Positions 1 through 63,180 of a DNA stretch of 64,000 bases are shown piece after piece. The first letter of the stretch is position 1; every line of letters starts with the position of its first letter. Below the pieces are notes generated by a model. The model ran no database searches. It was given only the letters and a program-made list of their open reading frames with translations, and was not told the DNA's origin. Position numbers and translations under genes: made by a program. This DNA is from Undaria pinnatifida (taxonomy: Eukaryota; Sar; Phaeophyceae; Laminariales; Alariaceae). The stretch is taken from NCBI GenBank assembly GCA_012845835.1, contig JABAKD010000025.1, positions 3,269,819 to 3,333,818 of the forward strand. Reading direction: 5' to 3'.

Positions 1-380
1 GGCATTCGGCAAGTCTCCCGCGGCAAGAGCAGGCGAAGGAATCGCCACCCGCGGCCGAGGTCAGTACCCGTGTTGTTGGCTACTTGGCCCAGCTTCAACA
101 TGGTTGATGTTGATAAATCACACTGACTGGTCAGAGCATCTTCATTTTACGATGAATTTCCCATACGGTTGGGTTTCGCGCTAGGCGTAAGGTTTGTTCG
201 AGTCTCCATTGGAAGAGCAGGCGGAGAACGCGCTCCAGGTGGCCGGGATAAGTAGTGTCTACGACCTGGCCCAGCTGCGACAAAATGGTTGGTAGACCAC
301 ACTAGGGAACTTCTAATGACATGTTCATTTTCCGAGAATAATCGCAGGCTGTCGGAGTTCGGGTTAGGGTGTGAAGTCCT
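1..380 (+). repeat. Tandem duplication over the exon 1 donor of the NAPE-PLD-like gene
   Basis: Two decayed copies of a unit of about 187 bp. The first holds the end of putative exon 1 (donor GT at 60-61) and the intron start. The second (from about 190) repeats the stretch from AGTCTCC through TGGCCCAGCT, but its donor is mutated. The reading frame of exon 1 (phase 0) fits the phase 0 start of exon 2. Confidence 0.5.
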
Positions 381-3300
381 AACTCCTCGTTGCATCTTCG
401 CCCCGAAAATTTTCCCGATCGGTCTAACTTGAGGTCAGATTCATGTTTTTTAAAGTTATTTATCGTTTATCGACGCTGGGCCAAGTGTCCTTATATGATG
501 GTACGTGATGCGATGGGATGGGAGCTTATGTTATATGGTGTGGTATGGTGTGGCTTGTTCCCTCCCCTGTTTTGTTCTGCTTTGCGCACGCAGGTGGAGT
601 TGGAGGAGATCGCGGGGCACTGCAAGGATGATCCCATGCGCGTAACGTGGATAGGACACGCCACCATTTTAGTACAGGTAAATATGCTCGTGCAAATATA
701 GATTTATTGACACCATTGAGTAGATATTTTGGTGGTGGGAGACGGGGGGAGGGGTAAGACAGGAACAAAGGCGGGGGGATTGGGGGGAGGGGGGGGCAAG
801 GGGGGCGAGGTACTGAGGGTGCAGTGCTGGACTTGTTGCGGGCGGTTGTGCGTCGCGCTATGTGACGGAGTGAGTTGCCGGCACCCGCTAAACGTCGATT
901 ACGTCGACCTTGTCTCCAGGCGCGTCTTGAGTCTTTGTCCGGGCAAACCTTTCACTTGCATGCGCGAGGGATGAGCTCAATGATCCAAGCCAATTGAAGG
1001 TTAACTTTCAACCTTCTTGGGACACATTTGTAGCGACCAAAACAACGTCATTCGCGATCAAAACAAGTGCCTAGGAAGACCGTGCAGCAGTACTACTACG
1101 ATGATATCCCCATGCTGCACGCGTCGTACAGCTCGTTACGTGGCAGTCGGACCCCTACCCCAGTGACCCGGCCGCTCCGTGTAGTCCATGTTGTAGTCAT
1201 CAGTTTTTTTTGCCGGTAGCGTTTTTCCACTCTGAAGCCCCGAAACGGTGAAGCACTGTCCGACTGTATTGTTTGTATGCTACCCCCAGACAAGCATGGT
1301 TAGCGGGGCATCCTGCGCGTTGCAGGGTTGGATTGACAGATTGCAGTGTGCATGTTGTAGGTCATATCGCTGGTTGCTGTTGTTTCACGGGATGGTTGCT
1401 GGTGGTTAGCTTTCCAGGGTCCGGTCGTTGGTCGTTAGGCGTTTCACGGCCTGGTCGCTAGGTTTTGACGTTAATCAACGCACTTTGCCAGTGATGATGT
1501 GATCATGCTGTCTTTTGCTGGTGAAAGCTGAGGGTATGCCCCTCTCGCTTTCAATGTCCATCGGTCCGCCGCCCCACAAGGGCAGTCGTGACGCGTTGTG
1601 TGCAAGCGAATTATTGAAATTTTCCCTTGTGAGTGTGCTCCCCCCGCCTCCCCCAGTCCCAACCCCGCGCTCCCCCCCTCCCTTCCTACTTCCCCCGTCC
1701 CCACACCGTTACGCCAATCCCAACCCCAACGCAACCCCTTCCCCAATCCACCCCCAACCTTCGCTCCAACCCAACCCCCATCCCGCCCCAACCTCACCCC
1801 AGGTCTCACTCTAACCCCAACCCCAACGCTAAAACACCGCGTCCTAACCCCCACCCTATTCCCATCGCCAACCCTAGAACACCGCACCCGAACCCACACC
1901 CCAACCCACAGCCTAACCCACACCCCCCGTGTGCGCTACTTACGAACGTGCTTGGCGAAACTCTATCATAAAAAATAATGGATTGACGGATGGGATGTTT
2001 TGATAACTCCCATGTTCTCGGACAGGGTGTCCGCCGACCAAATGGTTGGCTCGCCCCGCCAACCTTGTCCATGCACGAATCCCACCCCCCACCACCCCAA
2101 CCCGTAACCACCACCTTATCCCCAATCCCGACCCCAACACCCACCCTAACAAAACCCCCGACCCCATCCCCTACCCCCCGTGCGTGCGGATGCGTTCTTT
2201 ATTTGCGTTTATGGCTTCTCACAAAAACGTAACGCTAAAACCACCAAAATACCAAAAACACCCACAGATTGACGGGCTGAACGTATTGACAGACCCGATG
2301 TTCTCGGACAGGGCGTCCGCAAATCAGATGGTTGGGCCGAAACGGTTCACCCCGCCGGCTATGTCCGTGGCCGATCTGCCCCCGATTGACGTGGTGCTGC
2401 TGAGCCACAACCACTACGACCACCTGGACTCTGGATCCGTGAAGGCCGTTGGAGATTCCCCTCTTTGGATCGTGCCGTCCGGATTGAAGGGGTGAGGACG
2501 TTTTTTTTGTGGCAACCCCATGAGGGTGTTGTATTGATGTATGTATACAGGAAGCGGTTTTCATAAACGGGGCTCGGGGCTGTTTGGGGATTGTGCCGTC
2601 CGGACTGAACGGGTAAGAGTGCGTGTTTTTGGAAACCCCTTGAGGGTGTAGTATGGATGTACAGGATGTACATATCAGGAAGCGTTTTTGCATACTCAGG
2701 GTCCGGGGTTGTTTGGAGATGGTGCCGTCCGGATTTAGGAGGTGAGATTGCGTGTTTATAAACGCCATGAGTTTATATATGCGTATACTTCGAAGTATAC
2801 CAAGAAGCGTTTTCGTGAGTGGGGCCCGGGGGCGGTTGGGCGGACTTCGCTTGATGTTTTTTATTCGTTTTTGGACCGTGCCGTCCGGGCTGAAGGGGTA
2901 AGCGCGTGTTTTTGGAAACCTCCATGACGGTGTTGTAGGCTGCGGCAGGATTTTTGTAAGGGAGTCTCCGGAAGGATTGGGTCGGTTGGGATGTGGTGTT
3001 GGTAATGGGCTTGGTAGTGGTAGTGGTGGTGGGGGGTATTGTTGGTGTTGGTGTTGGTGTTGATGTTGGCGGTGATGGTGGTGGTGTTGGCGGTGGTGTT
3101 GGCGGTGTATGTGGTCATGGTGTTGTTGGTGTTGCTGGTGCTGTTGGTGACGGTGCGGTGGGAATGGGGGTGGAGGCGGAGGTTTTGGTGATAGTACTGC
3201 TTTCGTTTATGTTTATGCTGTTGGCGGTGTTGGTGTTGATGGTACAGGTCTTTGAGCTGGTATTGGTGAGGGCGGTGGTGGCAGCGTTGGGGGACGTACT

Positions 3301-6300
3301 CGTTTAGTTGCTTGTCGTAGTCATTTGGCCCTTGACCACGCATCCCTTTCGAGACGGAGCACCGTTCCCACTCCTAACAGAGACACCTCCAACATTTGGG
3401 CGCTCATTACGCTTTTTCCATATACTACATAGAAACTGGTTGCTTATCCCATCCCCTTCCTGTCTCGCCGTCTGTGGCCACCATCCATCTCCTAGAATAG
3501 CGATCGTTTTCTCGCTAGTCTTTTAGTCTACAAACTCCTCCATGTCACATTCGTCTAATTTCCTCATCTCCAACACACCCCGTTCCTCCTTGTATATTGC
3601 ACATTCTCCTACTATGTGAGTCCTACTCAGTATTATTAACGCCACACGGGCACACAACTGCATCCACGTCCTCCTCCTCCCGACTACTGCTGTACTTCGT
3701 ATATCTTATTTCTGGTAGGTCGAGGTCCCTTACACGAAAATGCAGTTTGGGCTTTTTCGCGTAGTCCATTGGGCCGTGCAAACACGGTTTCATTCCAATA
3801 CCTTCCCTCAACCCCCCTGTATATCTCTTGTGTGTTTCTCCTCTTTCACCTTTGGCAGCGTTGGGGGGGAGGGGTTGCGTCACGCCTTCCCTCCAATCGC
3901 TACGCCTCCGCATATTAAACTCCAATAAACGCTTGGTACGTTCTCTGCGTGCGATAGTGCTGTGAATTGATTGCCTATAAGTTGCCGACTAAATCTTAGT
4001 TGGCTACGAGGTACGTCGTATTATAGCTATTTACGTGCGACATTTTGCGGAGTTCTGCATCATTGTATCTGGCTGGCGTGTTCGTGGCTCGAAACATGGT
4101 TTTGCTTAATAACGACTGTACGTGGTTAGTTGGGCAACTTCGCTACGCAACAAGGGCATTAATTATTGAGCTGATGCGCGCACGCAACTTTTTTGGCCGG
4201 AATTGCTGTTTTGCGCAACAGACGCCGAAGGCGTGTTGCGCTGCGTTTCTGGTTTTTGAGGCGCCTTTTTTATGTTCGCCGTAGGCGCGGAAAACTGTTT
4301 GAAGGCGTCAAACACACGTGGTCAAGTGGTTTTCGGGCGTGTATTCACGTGTGTATCTCGAAAACAATGTTTTGGCGTCTAAAGGCACTTGGCCAGTCAA
4401 GTGCTTTTCGGGAGTATATTATATTCACGAGTCTATCGCAACCCTTTGCCTCCGGTGCCCCTGCGGTGGCACGCCAGCCTCTCGTGTTGCGCTACGCTCG
4501 ACAGATGCCAAAGCCCTAATCTATGCCCTGTACCCAACTGTTAATAGCAACTAGACCCAAGTTGCTACTGTAGTACTTGGTTGGCTTAGTTGGCTTAGTT
4601 GGCTTAGTTGGCTTAGTTCACCACCCAACTAATACCTAGCCTTGACGTCCAGCCACCTCGCACCCCTTCGAGCGTGCTTTTTTTTTCTTGCCGTGAAAAA
4701 CAATCCGTTTTATTTGTTCATTGAGTTCGACCACCGACCCACCAATGTTGGCCTGACAGGGTTTTGGGGAAGATGGGTCCAGCCACCTCGCATCCCTTCG
4801 AGCGTGCCTTTTTTGTTCTTGCCGTGAAAAACAATCCGTTTTATTTTGTTCATTGAGTTCAACCACCGACCCACCAATGTTGGCCTGACAAGGTTTTGGG
4901 GAAGATGGGTCCGGCCACCTCGCATCCCTTCGAGCGTGCCTTTTTTTTCCTTGCCGTGAAAACAATCCGTTTTATTTTGTTCATTGAGTTCAACCACCGA
5001 CCCACCAATGTTGGCCTGACAGGGTTTTGGGGAAGATGGGGGCGAAGCACTGCGTGGAGCTGTCGTGGTGGGAAGAGGTCGAGGTAGAGGGTTTCCTAGG
5101 CGCGGTAAGGTTCGCCAGCACTCCGGCGCAGCACTGGTCCACTAGACTCGTGTGGGACCGAAATACAAGGTGGGTTACAACAACAACCAACAAAAGAGGC
5201 ATGTACCGGTAGGGGGAGTACTCGGTTACAACAACAACCAACAAAGAGGTATGTACCGCTAGGGGGAGTACTCAATATCACACTTGGCCGCAGCCCCTCG
5301 CTTCCCTACAATGAGAGCGGGCGGGGTCTGGGACCGAAATACAAGGTGGTGAACAACAACAAACACAAGAGGCATGCATCGCTGGGGGGGGGTGGGGATG
5401 GGGGGGGGTAGTGTTTGAGGGATAATCACTGGTCCACCAGGCTCGTCTAGGACCGAAGTACGAGGCAAAAGTACTGTAGCAATCAGTAAATGGAAACTTC
5501 TACCGCTAGCGGGGGAGAGGGGGGGGGTTCGGGACTGAAGTGGAAGGTGATCAATAACAACCAATGGTGGAGGCATGCATTGCTAGCGGTGGCGAGGGGG
5601 GATCTGGGACCGAGATACAAGGTGACGGACAAAAGCAGTATAGGGGGCATGCATCGCCACGGGAGATATTAATAGTGTTTATGGAACAATCACTGGTCCA
5701 CCAGGCTCGTCTGGGACCGAAGTACAAGGTGATGAACACCAACCACTTGAGGAAGCTTGTACCGTTAAGGGGGGCGGGAGGGTGCGGGGCCGGAATGCAA
5801 GGAGACCGACAACTATCAATAAAATGAGGCATTAGTTGCTAGGGCGGGAGAGATGAGGGGGGTTGGGACCGAAATACTAGGTGATGGACAACAACAGATC
5901 ATGGAGGCATGTATCACTAAGGGGGGGCAGGGGGGGGGGGGGGGGGGTGCTTATGGTATAGTCCACCCGGAATCGTCGCGAGGGAAGATGCCTTATCGTA
6001 TTTTTTACCTGGCCTCGAGCTTGGACGGGATCAAGGGTGTGAGCAATCCCATGGCCTAAACGTGTAACGTTTTGTATTGATTACAAGTTTATTCCAGCGA
6101 TATTGGATAGCAGGTAGTCCCTAGGGAACCTCGTCACGCACAAATAGTTTCGCTTCAAAGTGCTATCTATCCCTGTCATAGTCGAACGCTTCTCCATCGC
6201 GCCGCATGGCATCGCATCGCATCGCTTCGCATTGCATCGCATCGCATCGCAATCGCATCGCATCGCATCGCATCGCATCGCATCGCATCGCATCGCATCG

Positions 6301-9300
6301 CGTCGCATCGCATCGCTTCGCATCGCATCGCATCGCATCGGATCGCATCGCATCGCATCGCATCGCATCGCATCGCATCGCATCGCATCGCATCGCGTGA
6401 CGTCGAACCGCGTTGCAGCGCCCCGCATCACGTCCCATTGCGTCGCATCGCATCGCATCGCATCTCACCGCTTATCACTGCATACCACCTCGCTGCATCA
6501 CATCCAAGCACACCCAACCGCACCCGACAGCATATCACCTCATCGCATGGCATCTCCTCGCTTTTCTCTTCTGAACTCACGCCCGAACGTAACCCGATGC
6601 TTCGTTCAATCCATCATTATGGCACCGCCGCCGCCGCCCTCTTGTGTCTGTCAGTCTGTGGTGCGGGTTTGCGGTTGCTGGAAGCCGCGAGCGGTTCTAC
6701 TTCGCCGGTGACACGGCCTATTGTCCTGTTTTCGGGAAGATTGGGGAGCGGTACGGACCGTTCGATCTCGGTAAGCAAAGCCCGCAACCTTCATGATTGT
6801 ACTTTCAGGGAATGTGTACAGTATATTAATAGAAAACATGTTTTTGGCTCTCAAAACTGAATTATTGGCCAAATGTATACCTTTTTTACTCCTCTGGACT
6901 GTCGAAAACACGGATACACTCCTCAAGATCCACCCCGTATTTTTCGGAGGGCTTTCTGGAGCAGATTTCCGTTTCTATAGGGTCCCATTTTGATTTTTGG
7001 CGCAATTATTCAGTTTTCAGAGATGATTTTTTTCTTTGTGAGAACTGGGGCCAAGAATAATGGATGTTTGAGGAATTTTGGCTAAAAATCGTCATGCCGT
7101 CAGAACTGGCAAATTGGACGAACAGTCAAAGTACGACTCTGGAGGAACGTAAAATTACACCAGGAAGCTCTAAGAAAACTACGGGGAGCATCCTGACGAT
7201 TCTACAGGTGCTTTTGGCCGTCTCGCCGAGTAAATCGCGTACTATCGGCCTTAAATCGCAGTTCTGAGGGCTGAATTTCTCCCCCCCCACAGTAGTTGAC
7301 CTTGTACAGTAACGATGCATGCTTGTTAGTACAGATACGATAATGTTGGCGGTGTGCCATGCGCGCTCCTCAGCTTTTCTTGGACATATTTCCAAGCTTT
7401 TGCCGCGCTAACTTTCGATAAGGATCACCCCTTGGTCCAAAACTCCCTCATCATCGTGCTCCCCCACCCCGGCCGTGTCGGGAGCGGCCTCGGGGGTGCT
7501 TGCGCCGTGCGCCCTGGCTGCGGGCTGGCCGGGTGTGCTGTACCCGTACTTTTTGTATAAATACGTTAGCTGTTAATTCGCACCACATCTTCGCAGAAAA
7601 TTTGAGGTTCGTACGCTAACGTAAGGTCGCGAAACGAGCGTTGCGAGCCTCTGCGGCTAGTGCGCCCGGTGGATAAACGGGCTCCATGAGGCGGAGGGGG
7701 CAGGGTCCTTGGTTCAGACCGAATTGGATGAACCTACGCCTTGCGAGGAGTGGTGCCGTGGTGGAGGTTTTTAACGTTGTGTTCGACGTTTACTTTGGAG
7801 CAATACAGTATCATCACGTGAAGCATGATGCTTCGGTTGCATTGTGAAGGCGTGTTTCGTTTTTTTAATGAAACCGCCAAGAAAAAGTAATTTACGTACG
7901 AGCATGTCTACCAAGTACGATGGTGTATCGTATGATACATACGAGGGCTCCGCACCGCGGGCGGCTGACACCGCCCGCTACCCCCGCGCAAGGAAAGTAC
8001 AACACAACGTGAAGGGGGCGAAAAGAAGAGGCCCATCATTTGGTGCAACAAGCAATTTGAGAATGCCAAGAGCAACGTGTGCAGAGCTGGTTGCCCTGCG
8101 CTGTGCCACGTGCTTGCTGGCGATGTCACGTTCTGATCGGCACAGTACTGATGTAGTTAGAAACAAAACTGAAGAGGACCGAGAGAGGACAGTCAGCGAA
8201 AAAAGCAACAAGACGAGTACACAACGGCAGTACACACGTACATACCGATACATAATATGAGGGCTGAGTGCGCTGTGCTGTTCTGTCTTTGTGATACATG
8301 CTCGACGGCAACGTGCTACTTCTGTTGTAGCTCTAAGAGCTGAAGATGGGTGTGTATTTATTGTGATTTGAGCAGAAGCAGTCGCGAAATAAATGTGTAC
8401 TTGTAGACTACAAGCAACGTGCGGCCGAAAAGTTTTCCGTGAGGAGGGTTCTCCGAAAGGAGGGTTTAGGCAGGCGTATTCCGGGTGGGAGCGCTGAGAG
8501 CGAAGCAGGACCTTATAATCAATTGATTCCAGGACGAATTACTTGACGAGATATTTGTGAGTATGTCTATGTACTAGTACTCGTATATTTTCTATATAAG
8601 TACTTGTATATACGTTTGTAGGAGAGAAGACACAAGACATGCCCAGGTACATGGTTGGACTGAAGAACGTGGTGGCACACCAGTAGCAACTCGTTCGAGG
8701 TTTGACGTGGTTCGGCGATGATTGCTTTTGCTGCCGCTGTGGTGGCATTAATAGAGACTACAACGTAACATGCTATACCTTGGTCGGGAGATGATCCAAG
8801 GCCTAGTACTGGAGCTAGGCCTCATTCGGCAAGAAATCATAGTATATCGTTGTTATTTATACCAGAAATAGTAATTCCGCTGTAAAAAAGACGAAACAAT
8901 TTTTTGGTCAAAAAGTTATTTGCTTAAATATTCAGGGTAACGTCGCTATGGGGTACGATTAATTTTTTTTTTTTTGGCTCTTTTCCTGGTCATGCAGCCC
9001 AGTTTGGTCAAGTTGTCAATTTTTCATCAAGCCTTGATCAACATTGTCCACCAAACACGATTGACCTTTGATCTCGAGATAGAGACAACCCGCGATCACC
9101 CCTCTTCGTTCCGGACAAGGTCACATGAGGGTAGGCGATAGCGCTGAAGAGTTCATCTTGATCCGTGCCCTAGGGCGTGAGAGGTAGCCTGTGTTGTCGT
9201 GTGGTCTTCCGTCAAATCCGCTCAAAGTTCAATTATTTTCCCGTTGAGAGACGATAGAGTGTTTGCCTCAGTTTTCTGCACACCAGCCGCCAAGTTTGTT

Positions 9301-11485
9301 TTAACAGAAGCCTGATTGGCGCCCGCCACAAATCACCGGCGGTAGAGTGAACACTGTACACCAAGGGGGGGTCGGAGCCCCTAACGAGCTCGCCACGTTC
9401 AGAGTTCACGACGCTGTTGTTGATTTCGTCGAACGAAGTGCGTGGAACACACGAAATCGCGCCGCGTCTCATCCAAGATTTGCTAGAGAATTTCTCAAGC
9501 AGATGTTGGCCAAGATCGCCGCGAGAAATCATTTTTTTCTGGAAAAAAGAACAAACTCTACAAAATTGGGCCTAAAGGCGACCGTCCAGGCAAAGTTTGG
9601 CTGGGATCTTGGGGAAGTTCAAACTTTTGGCCTTCCATTGTCACCGGTCTAAGTGCTATTTTTTCTGCTTTTGACCGAAGGGACTCAGGGTTTGCCAGGT
9701 CCAGTATGAAGTACTGTCGTCCAGTACAGTAGTGGCGTTGCCTTGTTGTGGACGGATTGCGTCCGCCGCTTGTCCTTCTCGCGTGTTCGCTCCCTTCCTA
9801 TGTACCCGTTAAAAGGCATTCTCGTGGTCGGCCACTACTGCATTCGGGCGTTTATACCGCTCGCCTCGTCAACTTGAGACCCTTCCGGCTTTATCTGACT
9901 TCGACGATTTTGCCGCTGCAAGAATGATCCAACTCTACATCCAAGTAGTTTGTTGGTAATGTTGAAAGTATTTTTACTGTCGACAGTAGACTATCCTGTT
10001 GCCTCTCACGGGTGATTTATATGTTTTCTCTCCGCTTTATTTTTTGTTTTTGTTTGTGCAGCCGCGTTTCCTGTAAGATCTCACGAGCCCGCTTGGTTTA
10101 ATGTACCGATATCGTTTCACTTATTTGTGCAGCCGCGTTTCCTGTAAGATCTCACGAGCCCGCTTGGTTTAATGTACCGATATCGTTTTACTTATTTGTG
10201 CAGCCGCGTTTCCTGTAAGATCTCATGAACCCGCTTGGTCTGATGTACCGATATCGTTTTACTACGTTATTGTTTTGCGCTGCCGCCGATCGTTCAACGT
10301 AAGCCTCGGATAGAGTGATCGGCACATGCACCCATTTTTATAGTGGTCTGCACCATATCCTGAAACAGTTTTTTGTCCCAAATATCAAATGTGGCTTCGG
10401 CTGATCAAGGCCCTGGTTTTAACGTTTGCCTTTATTTTTTCGTTTTTTTCTCTTTTGTGTGCGTTTTGTGCAGCCGCGCTTCCTATAGGAGCTCACGAGC
10501 CCGCGTGGTTCATGAAGGATCAGCACTGCTCTCCCGACGAGGCGGTGAAAATTCACCAGGACTTAGGGGCCAAGCGATCGTTTGCGGTGCACTGGGTGAG
10601 TTGCTTGAACGGCCGCAGTGCAGTGTGGGTGTTGATGTACGATGATAGAGGGTTCCCAATAGTACGCGATGAAGAGCGCCACCGCCCTCTATAGTGCCGG
10701 TAGAATCGTTTGTCACGATTGAAACCCTCAATAGTAGCCCTGTTCGCAATTGATAGGGATGGGAAGCGGCTGGACTTGACGTCTACCACGTACTTGTTGG
10801 TTGGGCGGCAACGTAAGCCATGTCAACCATCGACTCTGGATTTGAGTCTTGCTCGATATGTAAAACTCACTTCGAGCCACAAACACACCCGTCGGGTTGT
10901 ACGCAAGAATGCGGAACTCCGCACATTACCGCAAGGGACTGTTGTTGATAACGGTGTAAAAGGCAACGAATAACTAGTCGGCGATTACAGTCAGCCAAAT
11001 TGTAGCACAAGTTGTCACAGCAGCGGCAATACGCCAGCATGATCTCCGCCCCATGACTACCCCCCCCGCCCCGCCCCGTGGTTAACCCCCTTGCACCCCC
11101 TCCATCCCCTTCACGGTGGCTGAATCTTCGAGCAATGGTGCCTGATGCTCGTAACAGTGATGCCTGATGCTCTAACAATGATGCTTGATCCTCCTGACGA
11201 TTGTGTCTGATGCTTCTAACACTGGCGTTTAATGCTCCTAACAGTCGAACCCCCCGATAAATTGCCATGCAGGGCACTTTTCCGTTAGCGGCTGACCGGT
11301 ATGCCGACGCCCCGCGAGAGCTCGTGGAGGCGTGTCGAGCACGGGGCATCAAGAGTTCGGAGTTCACCTTAATCAGGTATAGGTAGACCACGCCACGGTA
11401 GGGTTGCACGTTTTTTTTCTGAAGGTTCCTTGCTTCGCTTGGGGAGTTCTATACCTCGCCGAATACTGACTTTGAGCAAAAATGA
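3..11485 (+). CDS. NAPEPLD: NAPE-PLD-like N-acyl-phosphatidylethanolamine phospholipase D, 5' partial, 8 exons
   Basis: Zinc-dependent metallo-beta-lactamase-fold hydrolase. The family cleaves N-acylphosphatidylethanolamine to N-acylethanolamine and phosphatidate at membranes. Exons: <3-59, 594-677, 2268-2491, 5023-5169, 6655-6770, 10474-10595, 11273-11376 and 11425-11485. All introns are GT-AG and all phases join, giving 304 residues plus TGA. Counting from the first codon seen: RVTWIGHAT in exon 2; [16 protein letters not shown] and the metal motif SHNHYDHLD in exon 3 (H94, H96, D98, H99); ELSWWEE and TPAQHW in exon 4 (H159); [13 protein letters not shown] in exon 5 (D190); [12 protein letters not shown] and AVHW in exon 6 (H249); GTFPLA in exon 7. 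The gaps 159-190 and 190-249 equal those between the ligands of human NAPE-PLD (253-284-343). Exon 1 and the 48-nt last intron are the least certain parts; the alternative is a stop at 11384. The true start lies upstream of the window. Confidence 0.92.
678..1970. other. Intron 2 body: G-rich tract and C-rich imperfect repeats
   Basis: No coding signal. A G-rich run sits at 740-810. From about 1640 to 1930 the + strand is an irregular array of CCCCAAC and CCCTAACC-like words; a second block of the same type lies at 2085-2185. These look like degenerate simple sequence and not true telomeric DNA. Confidence 0.6.
1971..2267 (+). repeat. Decayed upstream copy of the exon 3 acceptor and exon head (NAPE-PLD-like)
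   Basis: Positions 1978-2055 match the first 80 nt of exon 3 (ATTGACGG..., ATGTTCTCGGACAGGG..., ATGGTTGG) but have lost the frame. C-rich repeats lie upstream of both the copy and the true exon, so a unit of about 290 bp containing the 3' splice site was duplicated. The true exon begins at 2268. Confidence 0.75.
2460..2905 (+). repeat. Four tandem copies of the exon 3 donor (NAPE-PLD-like)
   Basis: The exon end GTGCCGTCCGGATTGAAGGG plus GTGAGG (true donor 2492) recurs at about 2592-2617, 2721-2748 and 2877-2903, each followed by a GTGAG or GTAAG donor. Between the copies lies related sequence (GGAAACCCC.TGAGGGTGT, CAGGAAGCG). Units are about 120-155 bp. The downstream copies are potential decoy donors. 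Confidence 0.85.
3005..3300 (+). repeat. GGTGTT-type degenerate simple repeat
   Basis: About 290 bp of GGTGTTGGTG-like hexamer and trinucleotide sequence inside intron 3. It yields open frames rich in Gly and Val, or Asn, Thr and His, that are not genes. Confidence 0.85.
3305..3925 (-). pseudogene. Non-LTR retrotransposon (LINE-like) reverse transcriptase C-terminal relic
   Basis: Reading the - strand from 3925 gives a broken protein. It holds a Cys-Pro-Cys-Gly, then His and Cys pattern (CPCG ... THIVGEC) like the zinc knuckle at the C terminus of LINE reverse transcriptases. [11 protein letters not shown] and [10 protein letters not shown] follow, then a stop near 3307 and a C-rich tail. 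It carries in-frame stops. A second copy with the same C terminus lies at 63233-63640 and short tails lie near 21.4 and 22.4 kb, so it is a dispersed element. The LINE assignment is an inference from the motif and the dispersal. Confidence 0.55.
4580..4620 (+). repeat. TTGGCTTAG tandem repeat, about 4 units
   Basis: A perfect short tandem array in intron 3, just upstream of the acceptor-copy array. Confidence 0.85.
4641..5042 (+). repeat. Three 130-bp units carrying the exon 4 acceptor (NAPE-PLD-like)
   Basis: Units begin at about 4649, 4779 and 4911. Each runs through CCACCTCGCA, a T-rich tract, CCGACCCACCAATGTTGG and CCTGACAG plus GGTTTTGGGGAAGATGGG, which is the acceptor and first codons of exon 4. 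The last copy is fused to the rest of exon 4 (start 5023). Upstream acceptors at about 4759 (intact CAG) and 4891 (ACAAG) are possible decoys. Confidence 0.9.
5140..5912 (+). repeat. About eight decayed copies of the exon 4 donor (NAPE-PLD-like)
   Basis: The exon tail CTGGGACCGAAATACAAG plus GTGRTG, then ACAACAACC and GAGGCATG, recurs after the true donor (5170) near 5327, 5450, 5532, 5606, 5715, 5793 and 5866. Two copies, at about 5429 and 5692, also keep the further upstream exon words CACTGGTCCA. Poly-G tracts separate several copies. Most copies keep GGTGA at the donor position. Confidence 0.88.
6200..6475 (+). repeat. (GCATC)n pentanucleotide satellite
   Basis: About 270 bp of nearly pure GCATC pentamer in intron 4. 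It is open in several frames on both strands only because a pentamer repeat without stops has no stops in any frame. Confidence 0.95.
6771..10049. other. Intron 5 body, no recognisable gene
   Basis: A 3.7-kb intron. I see A/T-rich stretches (8860-9000) and open frames of about 100 codons on both strands around 9233-9652, but no domain, no codon pattern and no splice-phase support. Confidence 0.55.
10050..10270 (+). repeat. Three 71-bp units carrying the exon 6 acceptor (NAPE-PLD-like)
   Basis: TTTGTGCAG plus CCGCGTTTCCTGTAAGATC and CACGAGCCCGCTTGGTTTA recurs with exon-like starts at 10062, 10133 and 10204. This is the acceptor and first 40 nt of exon 6, whose true start is 10474. The copies are nearly identical to each other, so the amplification is recent. 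All three AGs are intact. Confidence 0.93.
11117..11246 (+). repeat. 22-bp minisatellite with CTAACAG units before the exon 7 acceptor
   Basis: About five or six units of GATGCTCCTAACAGTGATGCCT type end 30 bp before the true acceptor (11271-11272). Many units hold CTAAC followed by AG, which resembles a branch point plus acceptor. Confidence 0.8.
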
Positions 11486-11905: not shown

Positions 11906-12772
11906 AATAAATAAAACCAAAGGTGTATCTTACACGTGCGTCTTGTTTTGCTCGCGACGTATTTTTCTATCGAGAAATACTAAAAAGGAAACTACTGTAC
12001 CGTAGGGTGGTTGCCTTAGTTCGCCACCCAACTAACAAGTCTATATATCCAACTCACAGGCCCACCGAAAATGATTACTCCAAAGCGTGGGCGTCAGTAG
12101 CTGTTGCACCCAAGAGCAGCGGACTCCTCACTAACTCCAACCCCCGCCCCCCTCCCCGCGCGCGCGCCGCCGCCGCCGCCACCACTGCCGCCGCCACCAT
12201 GTGCTTTTTTTTGTCACGTCTTCGCTCTATACCACAATCACGTCTTTAAAAGGGCGGTTCATAGTGGCTCTTGGTACCAGGATATTTGCTGACTTCAGCC
12301 CTACCCCCCCCGTCCCCTGCCGCCACCGCTGCCGCCGCTGCCGTCACCCCTGCTTCGCCGCTTCCCGCTTTCCTCCCATGCGTGCGTTTGCTTATTTTTT
12401 TGTTTGGTATGGCATGCGTCATGACCGGCATCGCGGCAGGCACGGCGAGAGTATAGTCAACGACGGCTCGGGCAGGCGTTACAAGTGCCTCTTCGGCGGG
12501 GACGACGTTAACCCTGACTTTAGTGCTACTGAAAAAATAGCCCAGCTCTAATTACAGCTACTGTAGTGTGTTTTCAATTATCGGCGACAGTGCTGTTAGT
12601 CCTGTGTTGCTGCTGAAGGAATGGCGCAGCCCTAATTCCAGTTACTAGTAACAATGGTTTGTTTCCAAGGCCGGCGACGTTCCTGTTTTAGTGCGCATTC
12701 AAAATCTTATCGTTATAGCTTGTTTCCAAACCGTGGGCACACACGATTAACTCCCTTCAGACGCCAGAGAGA

Positions 12773-18128: not shown

Positions 18129-21100
18129 TTACGGCTTCATTTCATTCTTGATCCTCCCGCAAAACCTGCGCAGCTCGTAGACCGCCTTCACGTGCGTTTC
18201 TTGCTTCAGCTTGAATTTTCGCGCCGCGTCCACTTCGTCGGAATACACGTCGGCCTTCCACCTGCGGCGCAAATAAATTACGGTGCGATGAAAGGTGCGG
18301 TGTGATTGAAGTTGCGGTTGCCATCAAACATGCGGCGTGATTGAGAGTGAGGCATGAGGTACAATGAAAGATGAAAGGCGCGGCGTGATCAAGGATGCGG
18401 CGTGATTAATACTGCATCACGACGGAACGTGCCTTTGACTAAATACGCCGCTACTGTAAATCACGGCGTGATTAAGGTCGCGGCATGACTTTAAGAGTGC
18501 GGAATGGTTACATGGCTAAAGTTGTGGCGTCATCAAGGCGCGACCTAATTATTGGTAAAATTTCGCGGCATCAACGGTGCAGCGTGATTAAAATTGCGGC
18601 GTGATGAGGGCACGGCATGGTCAAGGGCGCGGCGCGCGGCGGGATTAAGATGCGGCATGAACAAGGACACGGAGTGGCTAAGACTAAGGGTGCAGCCCGT
18701 TTAGACCTGCGCCCACGTTTGGGAGAACTACTGTGGAATTAGTATGGGTTGATTTTTTGCAGTGGTTAAATGGGTTAAGAACAGTACGCTACAAGCCTCG
18801 ACAGCAATGCGCACGACACACAACAAATGTCCAAGTCTCACGCCTCCCCGCTCTCCGTCCTACTATGCTGTACCAGGTACGTGTTTCATGACGAATACCG
18901 TGGGCGTGGATTAAGGACAGCGTAGCCTGACCATAATCGGCCGCTCCCCTTCTATTTTCCGCGAAATCAACCGACCGACTCACCTGCACAGATCCGGGGA
19001 TTCGTCGGTAGTGTATATTTCGCGGAAAATGTACCACACCAGCGCTGTTTATAGGAGGAGGAATTACCAACAATGGAGAGCGATGAGGGGGGCGGGGGGG
19101 GGGGGGGGGTGGGGGGGAAGGATCAGCGAGGGAGGGAAAGAGGGGAAGCGAGAGAGACGGGTAGAGAGAACGAGAAGGAGATATATGGAGATACTGAGAG
19201 ACTCACGTCGCTTCGCGCGTGGTGGAAACAATATCTGCCTGGCCCGTGTAAACCCGACGTTCTCCGTTAAGGGTGCGAGGGTCGATGGTCTTAAAACTAC
19301 GGCCATACCAGATACCAGGTACGTGATAGTGAGTACACCCCCCTTCCCTTCAGCTCTGCGAACCCAACCCAACATACACTAGATACCCCCCACACCAAGA
19401 CACCCCTCCCACCCTCACAAGCAATGCCCGCCAGGCCGGTGAAAGCCCAACGTGCTCCGACATGGCATTGTAGGCATGCGAGGGTCTATGGTCGGACAAA
19501 CTAGGACCATGCACGACAACGGTCAAACACACCCGCCGCGAGAACCTCCCCTCATGTCCTGCGAACCGCTATTGAACTCACGATGTACCGCGCGGTAGTC
19601 CCTTAGCTTCTGGAGACTCGGCTTGAGGGTCAGGTCGGGGCGGGCCGCCATCCCCCCGTTGCGGGCACTGGCAGTCGCCGCGTACTTCACCAACATTGCT
19701 GGATAACAGGCAAGAGGGTGGGTGGGTAGGTAGGTGGCGGGAGAGTGAGGCGAGGACGACTGATTTCGATAAAGCCGAGAAGCGAAAATGAAAATGACGC
19801 TATGTACGGAATAGTCACGAGGGACCAAATTCATGGGGTACGGACAAAATCGAGAACTCCGGCGACACCAACACCAACACACCACTGAAGTCACAACCAC
19901 CAACAGCATCTTCACCAAAGCCAGCACTTGCCACAACCGTCACTCCCACAACCCCCCAAAAGACAAAAAAACAAAACCCACCACCACTCTTTACTCCTCT
20001 AACATATCCGGCCCACAACCCCCCCCCTCACCTACCCCCCCTCCCTCCCCCCCTCCCTCCCCCTCCCATCCACACCCAAACCTCACCACCACTGCCACAC
20101 CCACTTTCCTCCCCACAACCATCACCACTACCCTCCCCCACAACCACCACCATCCCCCTCCTCCATCACACCAACCACCACCACCCTCCTCTCCACAAAC
20201 ACCACCCCCATCACCACTACCACCACCACCTCCTCCAACATGACCAGACCCTATGCCCAAAAAACACGCCCGTGTCGCCTCACATTCTCGGCGAGCAGAG
20301 GACTCGGCGTTGTTCTGGTTGTACAGGTTGATATTAGAAATGGGCCCCGGCGGGCCCGTCTTGCCCAACACGAACTCCACCCACTTCGTCATCCAGCCCG
20401 CGTCGATGAAAAACCAGAACTCGCCCACGTGCGTGTTGATGTCCAGCCTGCGAGCCACGCATCGATTTGCCCGGCCTAAGGATGGGTGCGATAGAAACTA
20501 CGACTGCTTATGTTTGATACATACCTGGTACGGTACAGCAGCATAACACTTCGTTAATGCCAAACGAAGCTGGAGCCACCAGGAATCACGCATCGTGGGA
20601 AGAAAACAACGAAAACATCTACAACAGGACCCAAAGGGTGAAAACAACAAACACGCATTACATAAAACGCAACTCCCGTAGTTCAATCGGGTACACACGA
20701 CAAAGTGGCAAGTCTAGGAACACCAGAAAACTAGTAATTATTACTCTAATAAGAATAAAAAGCAGCATGAGCCGGGAGGTCATCCCCATCAGTTCTCTTC
20801 ACATTTCGAGCCATCCATGCAAGTCGTTCCTTTTCAATATACAGGGGGGGGTACGATTTAAGAGAGGCGTGTGTCAGGCCAGCTACACCTCTCTTACACC
20901 GGTACTTCTCTTGAATCGGAATGGGTATCACGTACCTGGAAGATTTCAGCATGCCCGAACCTAGCCGCTTTACTCCTCTTAACCGAAATACGATACGAAC
21001 TACGAGTACAGCACTACCAATGGAAACAGCAGGACTATTAATAGGAACCATTGATAGAGTGTTAACCCATTTCCAACTCCAAAGATGATCCTAGTCTAAT

Positions 21101-24100
21101 TCCAAATGTTTTATTCCCCTGTCGGGAGTGCGGTGTTAAACTGCTAAACTGCTGCGGTGTTAAACTGCTAAACTGCTAAAACGATTAATAGGAAAATTGC
21201 ACGGCGTTTCACCTGTCGAATCTCTGGATGATTTCCACCTCGAACCCCCTCCTGGTAGTCGTGAAGTCCAGACCCCGAAAAAAGAAGAGAGAGAACGCGC
21301 CGTCCGCAGTTTGACCGGGTTTCCAAAAAAACGACAAAACACATCGAGGCGCGTGGATGGGGGGGGGAGGGGGGGAGGGGGGGGGGACGTACTCGTTTGT
21401 TTTTTGTCTTAGTCATTTCGCCTGTGTTGCTCTGCCCACAAAAATGAGATACAACCTAAAACGTCAAAAATTCTTGAAACCGGGGTTTGGTCAAAAACTT
21501 CCCCGCATTGGGTCATTGAGCGTTCTGCGCCCTTTCACCGGCGCCGTGCTCCCCACTGAAGCCTTCGAATGACACATGACGCCCGTAGGAACCCCACCAA
21601 GGCACGATATAGTCTGATCTGTAGCTGGTGTGGCCTTTGCCGTGTTACAAGTGGAGAAATCCGGTGCGCCGCGGCCATGTAGTGTTTCGTTTGCGCAGGT
21701 GCCGTCTATGGTCCCAGCAGTCGCGCAGCCAGTTTGGGCATTTTTCACCGTCACTGTCGCGGTGGTAAAGGTTACCGAAATCGCATAAAATTCGCCGTGT
21801 GCTCGTGTATACAGGGAGGGAAGGTATTCCAGGGTGGCGGAATTTCTGATTCAAGTCACCGACGCCGCATTCGCTGGAGACGTGCGCCTCAAAAAGCAAC
21901 AAAATGTGGACAAAAAAGCACTGCGTTGTAGCATTTCAGCGCTAGATAACAGAAAAACGTTGTTTTCAAAAACTGCACGCATATACGTACTGGCACTGAT
22001 CATCGCTACAGCAGCAAAAAAATAACTTGGCCACTACAGTATTAAGAAAGAAAAAAAAATCCAACGACCTGAAACCACATTGTCAAACTTCAGCGACACT
22101 GCCGCGGTGCTTACTTGGCACCAAAACTGCTGCCGCTTTGCCACGCTGTAGAGAGAGCACCTGAGACCCCATCGCAGGGTGGCGCGTTTTCTGATTAGCT
22201 GTGACGCCGGAGTTATGCAGAACTGCGGATTATTGTGCACAAATATTGCAAAGATGAGTATTGACCTGAAATTCGTCGAACTCACGGTCTGACGTCCTTG
22301 AAATATTAATATATAAAATATTACAGTGGCAGAGGTGGTTCCAGATCTGCATTTCGGCATAGTTCGACCCAAAATTTTGTTTTTTTTGGTGGGCAGAGCA
22401 ACGCAGGTGAGTTGACCGTTCACCATGCTGCTCTTTCGAGACGGAGCACCGTTCCTACTCACAGCAGGGGGAAGGGTAGGGGGAGTGGTAGGGGTAGGGG
22501 TAGGGGTAGGGGTGGGGGGAGGGGTAGGGGGGGGGGGGGGGGGGGGGGGGGGTATTCCTAACAGAGAAAATTGAGGACCGGGGGGGTACGGGTTGGACAA
22601 ACACGAGGAAATGTTCAGGGCTTTTCGTGGGTCGGATCGCTTCTCGTGGTTCGGTTCGGTTCGGTTCGGTTCGGTTCGGTTCGGTTCGGTTCGGTTCGGT
22701 TCGGTTCGGTTCGGTTCGGTTCGGTTCGGTTCGGTTCGGTTCGGTTCGGGTCGGGTCGGGTAGGGTCGGCGTCAGGGTGACCCAACCGGACCCGTGAGAG
22801 TTGAAAACCTCGCTGATCCGACCCGAGAGATTCGAACACATCCTGGCCCGACGCGACCCGTCCCGTGATATTCCAAACACCTTCTGACCCGAGCCGCAGG
22901 TCGCGTCGAGTCGGGTCGGTTAGGAGGGTTTCAAATCTCACGGGACGGGTCGGGTCGGAGTGACCCGACTCGACTCGCGAAAAGCAACAAGATTTCTGAA
23001 AAGCCTGGAATTTTTGGGCATACTTATACATTGTTACAACATGGAGGTACCAAGTTGACTTTGTGAGGGCATTTCTACGCTTTTCTCTGGAGCCCGTGGG
23101 TCTTTTCTCGCGCTTCTGGCTGCGGGACACGCACGTGGGCCGCTACTTTTTACGACGCACGTTTGGGCCCCTGCCGAGCCCCGTGGCACGTGCTGTGGAC
23201 GCTCAAATTAGTGAAGCTGGCTCTTTTTCAAGGGATTGCGTCCCGCCTCGCCGAGCCGCGCAGGAACTGCGAAAACCCACAAAAAGCAATTAAATATACT
23301 TTTGTCGGTGTGTTGCCTACAGCTCTACATATATCACACCTCGCTTGAAGACAGCAGCAGCACATCAGACATACACGTTGAAGTTTCACTTGAGCGATCA
23401 GGAAGCATTCACCATTCGGCCTGCGGGGGTCTCCGTAAGCACGCCACAATTCTCGAAATTGGCCCCCTCCCCACCTCCACCCCTACTGACCTGTTCCGGA
23501 AGGGGTAGTCTAACAGGACAGACGCTTCCGTCCGCCCCCGCCCCCCCGCCCCCCCCCTGACTCTACCCCCACGCCTCCCCCTGCTTCTACGCCCCCCCGC
23601 CCCCGCACCTGTGCTGACCTCTAAAGAACGGGCAGCCCGACGGGGAAACGCTTCCTTTTCCCCCGCTTCCCAAGCCTACCTCCACTCCCGACCCCTACTC
23701 CCCCCCCCCCCCCCCCCCCCCCCGACCCCGAATGCCTCCTCTTCAGCCGTACTGACCTTTTGGCGAGAGGTAGTCCGATAGGGAAAACGCTTCCTTTCCC
23801 CTCGCTTGCCAAGGGTTGCGAGAACCGCTGCGAGGTAGTCGTGGACCTTCCGTTGATGTTTTGAAGTGTGCGGGAAGATATGTTTTGTGACATCCATCTT
23901 TGCGCCGCCTTCGCCTGTGAGGTAGCAAGACAATGAATGAGAAACGATTACCACAAATAAGAAACGATGATCAAGAAACATCAGACGTAACAAAATAAGA
24001 AACAATATAAGACGAAAAAAAATAAGAAACGATGCGTACGAAACAGTAAACGATACTCAACACATAGGAAAGAGTGGGCAACAAACATGTTTCTTATTTT

Positions 24101-25851
24101 TTTCGATGCGTGAGAAACAGTTAACGATACTAAGGCATGGGGAAGAGTGGGCAAAAAACATGGATGCCTTGGAGTGTGATGGATGCCTTGAAGTGTGCGG
24201 GGAAGATTACTTTGGAAATGCCCATCGTTGCACTCCCTTCGCCGGGATAGAAGGCAAAATAAACACCAGGTAAATACTTCAAAAAATAAATTTAATAAAC
24301 ACGAAACAACAAAGTAAGAAAATGGCAACGCTTCGAAGTGTGCGGGAAGGTTTTTTTGTGACACTCATCGCTGCGCCACCTCCCGCCTGTACAGCAAGAA
24401 ACATCTGATAAAAAAAAAACAAGGAATACCAAGAAAACACATAATTACTAAAAGTGAGAAGTATGAAACGCTGACAATGAAAATACCTCTGTATGTGGAT
24501 GAAGATATGTTTTCGTGACACCCATCGCGCCGCCGACAACTTGGTGCTGTTTCCTGCGGTCATGTAGTTCTGCTACACCGAGCCAAATTACAGTACTACT
24601 GATATCTGGCATCTTGTGTCAACTGTCGCCGGCGCTCGCAGCCTTCACAGAGAGACTTGCGGCTGTGATCTTGCATTCCAGCCTCCCTCCTTCCTACCCT
24701 CCTGCCTTCACCCCTCCCTCCTCTCCCGCCCCTCCTTCTCTTTTTTCTTTTTTCTCCAAAATTTTCAAAATTTCCAAAGATAATTTCCGTTGTGTTCAAA
24801 AAGTTTGTTATTCTTTTTCTCATCGACGGGTGCTGCAGGAGCTGCACCAGTTGCTCGTTTTTCGTCTTCAAGTCCCCCCCCCCCCCGCGACATTCCCGCT
24901 CCCCGCAACCCACACCGCTACCACCACCATGTCCATTGTCAAACTGACCAATTTCCCCCTTCCAAGTGTTCATCGCTGCTAATGGACGCCCTTCGAGGGT
25001 TTCTTTGCCAAACCAAATAAATAAATAAAAGCTAAAACTCCAAATTTTCAATTTTTCCAAACAACAATTTCCAAAATTCCCCCCAAAAAAGTCTCCGACG
25101 GCTGCTTCGGGAGCTGCATCAGCTGCTGGGTTCTCGCCTTCAACCCCCCCCCACTCCGCGCCACTCCACCCCCCCCACCCACCACTACCGCCAACTTTTA
25201 TCATTCTCCTCCTCGTTTCCCTCGTCGCTGCTAATGGATACTCGTATGCTCTTAAGGGTTTCTTTTGACACGATATTTTCATTTTTTCCAAATCAAAAAC
25301 ACACCCACCAGGGGAGCACGCAAAAATAAAAAAAAGGGGCCACACTCCTAGGGAGGTCAAAACGAAAAAAAAACGGAGCGATGTGATTCCTCTGCGATAA
25401 CTGAGAAAACGGCGTTTTCTTTCCATTTCACTTTTTACTTGGTTTTAGGAACCCTCCCCTCCGCCCCCCCCCCTCTCTGGCTCCTTCCTTAAAAAGAAAG
25501 TGTAAAGTGTAGGTAACTTTTTTTTTGTGCTCCCCTGCACAAACAACAAAATCCCAAATTCCAATTTGTTTTCAACAATCAACTCACCGACGTGCGATTC
25601 GGGAGATGTATCAGCTGCTGAGTCCTCGCCTTCAACCCCCCACTCCACGTTCCAGCCCCCTTCCATCCACCACCACCACCACCACCACTATGCCCATTGG
25701 CAAACTGATCGTTTTGCTCCTTCTCGTGCTCCTCGCTGCTAACGGAGGCCCTTCGAGCGTTGGGGGCCGTAGCCGCGAGCCCGCTCTGTCGGGCGGGGCC
25801 CTCGAGGGCTTCAACGCCCTTCGGACCCGAGTCTCCGAAAACCGTCGCCAT
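18129..25851 (-). CDS. DUSP-domain protein, complete, 5 exons, 259 aa
   Basis: Exons on the - strand: 25851-25588 (ATG at 25851, context ATCATGG), 23914-23757, 20447-20284, 19044-18984 and 18261-18129 (TAA). Every intron is GT-AG and every split codon joins; the total is 780 nt. Residues 1-88 are Ser- and Gly-rich (RRASVSSEEHEKE). Residues 142-216 are a DUSP-like domain: LDINTHVGEFWFFIDAGWM, KWVEFV, PPGPISN, then VWYIFREIY. DUSP domains mainly occur in ubiquitin-specific proteases, where they help in protein binding. No USP catalytic Cys or His box is present, so this is a stand-alone DUSP protein and a ligase or scaffold role is only a guess. The tail (KFKLKQETHVKAVYELRRF) is basic and helical-looking. 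The function is unknown. A further tiny exon in the 3.3-kb intron cannot be excluded. Confidence 0.85.
18270..18700. repeat. Degenerate GCGGCGTGATTAAGG-type minisatellite filling intron 4 of the DUSP gene
   Basis: More than fifteen loose repeats of AAGG(T/C)GCGGCGTGATTA lie between the last two exons. The spacing is irregular and the copies strongly diverged. Confidence 0.75.
19195..19320 (+). repeat. Dispersed 110-bp repeat, copy 1
   Basis: Shared words TCGCTTCGCGCGTGGTG, CTGCC.GGCC, AACCCGACGTTCTC, GGGTGCGAGGGTCGATGGTC and CTACGGCCAT recur at 19410-19520 and 44160-44305. It lies in intron 3 of the DUSP gene. Family unknown. Confidence 0.65.
19410..19520 (+). repeat. Dispersed 110-bp repeat, copy 2
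   Basis: AAGCAATGCCCGCCAGGCCG, AACGTGCTCCGACATGG and GCATGCGAGGGTCTATGGTC match the other two copies. Confidence 0.65.
19985..20240 (+). repeat. CCA/CCT-rich low-complexity tract in DUSP intron 3
   Basis: About 250 bp of CCACCACC and CCCTCC sequence sits just downstream of the exon 3 donor on the - strand (G-rich there). Confidence 0.8.
21365..21450 (-). pseudogene. LINE-like element 3' tail fragment
   Basis: On the - strand a diverged version of the element end seen at 3305 (GACTAAGACAAAAAACAAACG) is followed by AGTACGT and a long C-rich tract. Only the 3' end is present. Confidence 0.45.
22365..22465 (-). pseudogene. LINE-like element C-terminal fragment, variant end
   Basis: The - strand encodes SRNGAPSRKSSMVNGQLT followed by VALPTKK. 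The first part matches the C terminus at 63.3 kb; the second part matches the 21430 fragment. Confidence 0.45.
22643..22750 (+). repeat. (GGTTC)n pentanucleotide satellite
   Basis: About 100 bp of pure GGTTC pentamer, continuing as decayed GGGTCG-type sequence to about 22980, all inside DUSP intron 2. Confidence 0.95.
23475..23790 (-). repeat. Copies of the exon 2 donor (DUSP gene)
   Basis: On the - strand the exon end (GGAAGCGTTT..., CGGACTACC, ending in AG) plus GTCAGTA is at 23756-23755. It recurs with donors at 23618-23617 and 23490-23489. Poly-C/G tracts separate the units (about 128-138 bp). Confidence 0.82.
24180..24560 (-). repeat. Copies of the exon 2 acceptor (DUSP gene)
   Basis: On the - strand the acceptor and exon head (GGCGGCGCAAAGATGGATGT, then CACAAAACATATCTTCCCGC) start at 23914. 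They are repeated with decay at about 24245, 24388 and 24540, upstream of the real exon. Runs of CAGAYGTTTCTTG-like and GAAACGAT-like sequence lie between. Confidence 0.82.
24825..25600 (-). repeat. Three-copy block of the exon 1 tail and donor (DUSP gene)
   Basis: The true exon 1 tail occupies 25588-25760. Copies lie at about 25095-25265 and 24828-25005. Each holds TCCRTTAGCAGCGA, a G-rich centre and GAAGRCGARNAC..CAGCAG. The protein frame stays readable (LKARTQQLIHL, LKARTQQLMQL, LKTKNEQLVQL). The donor GTGAGT is intact only in the true copy; the others read GAGACT and ATGAGA. Confidence 0.85.
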
Positions 25852-34488: not shown

Positions 34489-34504
34489 AAAAAAAAAAGC
34501 ATGA

Positions 34505-44025: not shown

Positions 44026-44058
<33 letters not shown>

Positions 44059-58163: not shown

Positions 58164-58240
58164 AATCATTACTTTTTTTTTTTATCCTCCGGCGGATGGG
58201 GAAAAATAAAGCTTTAGCTCACCACAAACACCCTACGTAA
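58164..58240 (-). repeat. Poly(A)-tailed SINE-like repeat R2, reverse copy
   Basis: T run, ATCCTCCGGCGGATGGGGAA, AAATAAAGCTTTAGCTCACC: the reverse complement of R2. Confidence 0.78.
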
Positions 58241-62262: not shown

Positions 62263-62427
62263 AGTGCTGGACCAAACGAAGAAAAACGGCAACGCAACAA
62301 CGCGAGGCACTACCAACCTACAGACGATACCAGTCCCGCCAGAGGCCAAACCATATTCCGGGTGGAAACCACCTCAACCACCACCACCGCAAACACACAT
62401 ACCGACGCGACCCGACCCGTCCCGTCA

Positions 62428-63000
62428 TGCCCAGCGCTCGTTGTAACACCGGACGCGGAGGGGGTTCGAAAGTGGCATCAATTTCGTGAGCGCCACGCAG
62501 ATCCTAAACACCCTCTCCTCCGCCGACCTCCGCGTGGGGAACTCCGAGGAGCTCTCCTCGGCCCACGCCTGCACCACCTCATCGGTACCATCGAAACCCT
62601 TTCCGGCCCGAACCGCCGCCGCCGCCGCCGCCACAGCCGACGCCAACGAATATGTACCACCACCCGCACCCCCAGCACCGCCAACCCCACCAACGCCGTC
62701 GCCAACCCCACCAACGCTTTCTACGGCCCCCTTATCCGCCTCTAGCGGTAGCGGGGTGGAGGGAGGGTTGGCGGGCGCAGCTGGGGCTACGCCCGCAGTA
62801 GGAAAGTCTTCGTCCATGTGGGACATGGGGTCCTCCACACCCACGATGAGAGCACGCGTGATGTGGTCGAGGACGGAGGTAGGGTGTAATGGAAGGGTGG
62901 TGTCGCTTCGCATCGCGTTGATGTTCATAAACCCGTGTCGGACGCAGCCCGCCATTAAGCCTAGATCGTGGATCCAAGGGCACCACCACATTGGTAATCC
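62428..63000 (-). CDS. Internal exon of a large gene, possibly a CHD-type chromatin remodeller (partial)
   Basis: On the - strand an acceptor (TTTCATCAG, AG at 63002-63001) opens a frame from 63000 to a stop at 62425. It reads WCPWIHDLGLMAGCVRHGF, then NINAMRSDTTLPL near the start. A Gly/Ala-rich low-complexity stretch follows, then EFPTRRSAEERVFRICVALT. HDLxLxxGxxxHGFxxxxAMRxD followed later by a WP/FP...R...RI..A segment resembles the C-terminal SANT/SLIDE-like region of CHD ATPases; this is a loose pattern match. The donor is not resolved; a candidate is GTGTTA near 62444. An alternative start is the ATG at 62955. No ATPase or chromodomain lies in the window. Confidence 0.42.
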
Positions 63001-63180
63001 CTGATGAAACCGTCAAAACCAAAACCCGGAAAGGCGTTATCAAGAGTTGAAGGGGGAGGGAGGAAGGGAAGGTGAGGGGGGGAGAGGGAGGGTCAATATC
63101 GAGTAGCGTATCCGACTTGGAATCCAGGGACACCACCGCATCGGTAATTCCTAATGAAATTGTCGAGCGTACCACTAGAA
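62920..63180 (-). repeat. Tandem copy of the acceptor and exon head of the 62.4-63.0 kb gene
   Basis: TTTCATYAG, GRATTACCRATGYGGTGGTG, YCCYTGGATYC is present at 63003-62965 (true) and again at about 63160-63115, with related AAAGGC.TTAT..AA and G-rich sequence after each. Confidence 0.78.

Follow-up and report, generated by a model that had tools for sequence, protein, structure and literature searches.

We analyzed a 64,000-nucleotide stretch of the genome of the kelp Undaria pinnatifida (contig JABAKD010000025.1, positions 3,269,819 to 3,333,818; hereafter, the window), in which the introns of three genes, on both strands, contain local copies of the splice junctions that border them. Donor-side copies carry an exon tail followed by an intron head, and acceptor-side copies carry an intron tail followed by an exon head. 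The guanine-cytosine (GC) content of the window is 50.0%; the published Undaria assembly is described as having 50.14% GC and 54.0% repeats, with unclassified repeats making up 36.1% of the genome (PMC7058681). Scans of the window for Rfam families and transfer RNA (tRNA) genes returned zero matches.

The first gene, on the forward strand, is predicted to encode NAPE-PLD. The spliced model of its exons E1 to E6 yields 266 amino acids, all of them identical to a section of protein P0001 (425 amino acids; jgi/Undpi1 HiC_scaffold_25), and its last exon, E7, is identical to the C terminus of the same protein. The encoded protein matches the NAPE-PLD structure 4qn9 (E 1e-87) and the family PF12706. 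The second gene, on the reverse strand, runs from 25851 to 18135 in seven exons (e1 to e7) and is predicted to encode a DUSP-domain protein, as indicated by a match to PF06337 and by the homologues P0121-P0127. Its frames and borders were obtained by tblastn with P0121-P0124 and P0126, after which the nearest phase-compatible AG or GT at the ends of homology was taken. Border quality is uneven: exact in gene 1, for which an identical protein is available, and derived from the ends of homology in gene 2. The 39-base exon e3 gave only weak matches (E 0.007-0.11), in the correct order and phase. The start and first part of e1 were placed by homology, and its donor probably lies at an in-phase GTGAGT about 110 bases past the clear homology. 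The window includes only the last exon of the third gene, also on the reverse strand, which encodes the end of a conserved brown-algal protein (VRCYNERWA followed by a stop codon). This exon is 99% identical to P0128, and named relatives are found in Hapterophycus, Scytosiphon, Ectocarpus, Laminaria, and Choristocarpus. We placed its acceptor at 63000/63001; P0130 and P0147 extend past this border, at KE-GLP, in support of the placement. A CHD1-type helix-turn-helix (HTH) match of this gene was below threshold (E 0.031; score 14.7 bits, cut-off 27), and the gene was left unnamed.

To detect copies of splice junctions, 40 + 40 bases around each border were aligned to the 2.5 kb on its intron side, and a copy was considered to span the junction if it covered 12 or more bases of both the exon and the intron. 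The opposite, wrong side of each border and the reversed intron-side sequence served as controls (26 each). Direct copies spanning the junction were found on the intron side of nine of the 26 in-window junctions, with scores of 119-283. These are the acceptor and donor of E2, the acceptor and donor of E3, the acceptor of E5, the donor of e1, the acceptor and donor of e2, and the acceptor of gene 3. The remaining 17 in-window junctions showed no spanning copy (scores of 86 or less), and none of the 26 had a copy on the wrong side. The wrong-side and reversed controls scored 87 at most, and chance similarity was rejected as the source of the copies. A tenth case is probably provided by the donor of a NAPE-PLD exon located just left of the window: segments 10-180 and 199-363 align to each other with a score of 251, and their translations match the tail of that exon in P0001 with scores of 43 and 42 (at least 40 was reached by 3 of 2000 random pieces). 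Including this exon, 10 of 27 borders carry junction copies. The initial annotation had described junction-spanning segments copied one to eight times at about ten of roughly seventeen borders, in three genes and on both strands. The copying itself is borne out against the controls, and the number of copied borders holds; the total, however, is 27 placed borders, and the copies counted per in-window junction range from one to seven.

Iterative alignment at the nine in-window borders yielded 23 copies: 1, 3, 2, 7, and 3 in gene 1; 2, 2, and 2 in gene 2; and 1 in gene 3. This count leaves out a weak match to the E3 acceptor (4159, score 106), two matches confined to intron sequence (5230 and 23984), and a fragment of exon only (24494); it retains three thin copies, two of E5 with 9 aligned intron bases and one of e1 with 5. 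The overall identity to the source border is at least 0.85 in six copies, 0.70-0.85 in 15, and lower in two. The youngest copies are perfectly tandem, comprising three units of 131 bases over the E3 acceptor with 95% matches, and the seven copies of the E3 donor have an intron-side identity of 63-83%. Near E5, three units of 71 bases are found about 200 bases before the real border, and a copy was therefore itself amplified. The copies are direct, local, and head-to-tail, with contiguity established for part of them, namely the 131-base and 71-base arrays. The junction alignments covered direct copies within 2.5 kb; a self-comparison of the window in both orientations revealed only direct, local relatives for seven of the nine arrays. 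The exon body remains single, as the initial annotation had stated, but copies may be long: one extends about 116 bases into a 224-base exon, and in e1, which has 264 coding bases, copied sequence covers about 170, a cover that may be pieced together from both copies. Copies of exon interiors were detected at 37 of 161 interior centers, only in E2, e1, and e2, and always beside a copied junction.

We further examined the splice signals within the copies. The GT or AG dinucleotide is kept in 16 of the 23, compared with 15.3 expected from the squared exon-side identity (0.817 squared), an expectation that is, if anything, high, since identities were taken from trimmed local alignments. Splice signals are thus no better conserved than the rest of the unit. 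Over all 23 copies, identity to the functional border is 82% on the exon side (704/862) and 75% on the intron side (733/977), the difference that a frozen exon and otherwise drifting sequence would produce. At the E3 acceptor, one copy keeps its AG; the other has lost it at the matching place and has another AG one base on. Overall, the copies decay neutrally, with splice dinucleotides lost at approximately the neutral rate. Of the kept sites, 15 had a set phase and were scored; use of any of these would add a stop codon to the message (one kept copy of the e2 acceptor was unscored). Duplication was also seen at a border without splicing: the stop codon of gene 1 is spanned by a strong copy (score 168). 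The window scan found no copied family at the stop codons of genes 2 and 3, such that one of three stop codons is affected overall.

Table 1 Exons and copied segments in the window, with positions counted from its first base
Feature	Position	Strand	Evidence or remark
Predicted donor-side copies of the NAPE-PLD exon left of the window (exon tail + intron head; segments 10-180, 199-363)	10..363	+	Source border outside window
Gene 1 exon E1, without junction copies	594..677	+	P0001 identity
E2 acceptor-side copy (intron tail + exon head), splice AG lost	1935..2040	+	Score 181; exon 44/59, intron 29/47 identical
Gene 1 exon E2	2268..2491	+	P0001 identity
Three donor-side copies of E2 border, GT kept in all	2580..2937	+	
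131-base unit x3 over E3 acceptor; real acceptor in third unit	4647..5040	+	Tandem Repeats Finder (TRF), 95% matches
Gene 1 exon E3	5023..5169	+	P0001 identity
Seven donor-side copies of E3 border, sites 73-119 bases apart, GT kept in 5	5326..5926	+	
Gene 1 exon E4, without junction copies	6655..6770	+	
Three acceptor-side copies of E5 border, with the 71-base x3 array	10000..10263	+	Array ~200 bases before real border
Gene 1 exon E5, copies at acceptor only	10474..10595	+	P0001 identity
Gene 1 exon E6, without junction copies	11273..11376	+	
Gene 1 exon E7 (last coding), no copies at acceptor	12440..12551	+	
Stop-codon-spanning duplication (12518-12597 copied to 12602-12687)	12518..12687	+	Score 168; family in scan
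Gene 2 last exon e7, acceptor without copies	18135..18261	-	Homology to P0121-P0124, P0126
Gene 2 exons e6 (18984-19044), e5 (19582-19698), e4 (20284-20447), e3 (21213-21251), all without junction copies	18984..21251	-	
Two donor-side copies of e2 border, GT kept in both	23471..23674	-	
Gene 2 exon e2, copies on both sides	23757..23914	-	
Two acceptor-side spanning copies of e2 (AG kept in one) and exon-only fragment 24494-24534	24182..24534	-	
Two copies on the donor side of e1 (24740-24962, 25058-25225), neither keeping GT	24740..25225	-	
Gene 2 first coding exon e1, putative donor	25588..25851	-	
Gene 3 last exon, acceptor 63000/63001	62425..63000	-	Open reading frame (ORF); P0128 99% identical
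Acceptor-side copy of gene 3 border, AG kept	63116..63210	-	Score 186

The initial annotation had also proposed a direction rule, by which donor copies lie downstream and acceptor copies upstream of the exon. This was indeed seen, at nine junctions versus zero of 26 on the wrong side, but the rule is not a separate biological fact. A duplication across a donor converts body-tail-head into body-tail-head-tail-head, and because the first donor still adjoins the exon body, the second unit is intron; acceptors are the mirror image. For any tandem duplication that spans a splice site without changing the messenger RNA (mRNA), both this direction and a single exon body must therefore follow. Neutral simulations, in which duplications occurred at random and those inside or covering an exon were rejected, gave the same outcome: at three rates, intron-side versus wrong-side copies numbered 36 versus 3, 78 versus 2, and 106 versus 4 of 448 junctions. 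These simulations, a yardstick rather than a fit, assume random sequence and log-uniform unit lengths (30-350 bases) and reject all whole-exon duplications.

We consider it probable that the copies are what can still be seen of local tandem duplications, which occur frequently in this repeat-rich kelp genome, leave the mRNA unchanged, and decay neutrally. A duplication within an exon, or of a whole exon, would alter the protein and be lost. One that covers a donor or an acceptor would leave the outermost splice site at the exon body, so that the mRNA would be unchanged and the extra copy silent in the intron. Some copies would then be amplified again, like a minisatellite, before decaying by neutral mutation. 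The duplications may arise by slippage, unequal exchange, or repair; selection presumably removed the others, and the outermost splice sites are predicted to be those used in RNA. The neutral reading builds on the nine of 26 copies on the intron side versus none on the wrong side, as in the simulations; on exon-interior copies being present only beside copied junctions; on the one stop codon in a copied family; and on arrays located away from junctions. That introns grow by tandem duplication across splice junctions, the central claim of the initial annotation, holds in this window.

To quantify enrichment, the 25 junctions of genes 1 and 2 were compared with one-sided copies at intron positions of both genes. 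A one-sided copy was present at 18% of non-simple intron positions (3-4% in reversed controls). Relative to all introns, a comparison that is conservative since the junction arrays themselves fill the background, eight copied junctions of 25 correspond to a binomial P of 0.07 at a score of 100 and of 0.017-0.146 over six thresholds, with the junction count dropping to 7 and 5 at the two highest. A rotation test gave P = 0.13 (mean 5.4 versus 8 seen). With the intergenic background of 11%, P was 0.005 at a score of 100 and 0.001-0.036 over thresholds.

Several observations weigh against a purely neutral account. Introns outside the junction arrays carry copies at 8% of positions, against which 8/25 gives P = 0.0007 at a score of 100 and P < 0.005 at all six thresholds, a comparison that is liberal and biased upward, as the arrays in question were taken out of the background. 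Neutral simulations with a background of 0.16 (0.18 was observed, of which about 0.035 is explained by the reversed controls) had a mean of 3.2 copied junctions of 25 and reached at least eight in 2 of 120 runs; simulations with bursts of copies had a mean of 2.35 and reached at least eight in 0 of 120. None of the 240 runs reached the 21 copies counted by the simulation criterion, the simulated means being 3.5 and 3.2. In addition, the stop-codon copy is a single case. Without the putative e1 donor, 7 of 24 junctions give P values of 0.13 (all introns), 0.003 (outside arrays), and 0.014 (intergenic), and every enrichment figure is affected by the choice of this window for its pattern. The excess of copies at junctions, about two-fold, is suggestive but unproven. 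The check proposed by the initial annotation, comparing junction copies with intron duplication density, thus gave a mixed outcome, positive against introns outside the arrays but not in the rotation test.

The same figures bear on the alternative that fares best, in which tandem duplication in kelp has true hot spots where exons meet introns. Some mutational bias linked to these borders would seed arrays there, and introns would grow outward from the exon edges. Transcription, R-loops, the nucleosome edge, and spliceosome-bound RNA are candidates for such a bias. The excess over intron positions outside arrays, which persists without the e1 donor, and the rarity with which simulations reach the observed junction and copy counts argue for it. 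Yet the rotation test, with arrays in the background, and the all-intron comparison of the 7/24 junctions both give P = 0.13, and the window was selected for its pattern. Moreover, some arrays sit away from junctions, and the similar copy at the stop codon speaks against a splicing-linked cause. On balance, we find hot spots unlikely. Slightly more doubtful still is the broader proposition that kelp exon edges are permanent seeds of intron growth. Duplications would begin preferentially at the borders, each leaving behind a copy of the junction that decays; introns would thereby lengthen from their ends outward and preserve, as fossils, a record of their own splice sites.

Three other explanations were considered and rejected. 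Copies might be functional, with selection maintaining them as decoy or alternative splice sites that tune splicing; judged by eye, some fit the donor consensus no worse than the real site does, or even better (GTAAGA and GTAAGC versus the real GTGAGG at E2). This is very improbable, since dinucleotides are kept at about the neutral rate, GT is lost in both e1 donor copies, and using any of the 15 scored sites would introduce stops. Marginally less credible is their origin as decayed tandem duplications of whole exons (ancestral duplicated or mutually exclusive exons): although some copies hold at least 116 exon bases, no copy was found with both borders of an exon, and the middle of e2 (~23814-23854) has no copy, though both of its ends are copied. 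Introners are repetitive sequences tied to introns, dispersed and alike between genes. Insertion of such mobile intron-like elements, or of other dispersed elements, at splice sites could account for several affected borders in different genes, but it is the least plausible, as seven arrays (E2 acceptor and donor, E3 acceptor and donor, E5 acceptor, e1 donor, and e2 acceptor) match only themselves, locally, in the self-comparison, whose threshold missed the e2 donor and gene 3 arrays. Within the window, these seven of nine arrays are thus private to each border, unlike the dispersed introners.

Under the favored reading of local tandem duplication and neutral decay, the pattern is a new and dense instance of something already known, namely that tandem duplications can cross splice borders. 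In the potato RdRp gene, a tandem genomic duplication over an intron-exon boundary is reported to have made a new intron (PMC4974935). As in Undaria, the duplication described there crosses an exon border and carries splice signals along, but the Undaria copies stay in the old intron, are often multi-copy, and affect many borders of one region. In Drosophila, novel introns are reported from tandem duplication of coding segments with an AG/GY proto-splice site (PMC2891723). In both cases, local tandem duplications bring splice motifs along and are tolerated since the extra copy is spliced out; in the Drosophila report, coding segments become new introns, whereas in Undaria existing introns lengthen, and no junction copy is an exon of the gene 1 model. 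Human genes in segmental duplications are also described as having internal tandem repeats at exon-intron boundaries (PMC2812944), which similarly alter gene structure. The human cases, as described, are recent and have RNA support, whereas 17 of the 23 Undaria copies are less than 85% identical to their source and lie within introns. Kelp introns are long: in Saccharina they are reported to average 1,057 bases, versus 703 in Ectocarpus (PMC4421812). Among the literature matches listed, judged by titles and the beginnings of abstracts and mostly without subscription papers, we found no report of junction copies in brown algae, or of exon-edge copies as a mode of intron growth.

The window contains numerous other repeats. 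In the last NAPE-PLD intron, two 169-base units (11440-11778), 99% identical and touching no junction, represent a very young duplication that can usefully serve as a control. At 44555-46670, a 42-base unit forms two clusters, with a core that by eye is palindromic, like GAGCTATAG..CGATAGCTC; this is a minisatellite in which hairpins are possible. Units of about 41 bases around ACAGAACTTCCAGAAGTTCCGGGTACGGGTA, by eye partly palindromic, occupy 27714-28208. A dispersed repeat of about 740 bases (30189-30920 and 38921-39664; 90% identity) contains TTTTTCGACTG-rich parts in inverted orientation and is a candidate non-autonomous mobile element. A 636-base direct duplication with 95% identity is present at 49713-50346 and 50432-51066 (spacing 719 bases), and a short dispersed element around CCATCCGCCGGAGGATAAAAAA, with an A-rich end, occurs on both strands (34434-34498, 38124-38187, 44035-44085, and 58169-58226). 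Pentanucleotide arrays include CATCG x54 at 6195-6464 and GGTTC x22 at 22648-22759. Two adjacent in-frame ORFs on the forward strand (54329-55258), without a Pfam match and with dispersed repeats on both sides, are possibly a decayed mobile element. Two further ORFs without a Pfam match, both putative as coding sequences, lie on the reverse strand, at 17569-17901 (110 amino acids) and, within a gene 2 intron, at 21491-21850 (119 amino acids).

The lengthening of introns is seldom visible. Copies that include exon sequence provide internal markers of it: the exon is frozen, so the age of a copy can be read. If junctions were enriched genome-wide, this would represent a new route of intron growth and would offer a natural way to test how near-perfect decoys are passed over in splicing. 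If they were not, the data would measure the neutral rate of tandem duplication in introns.

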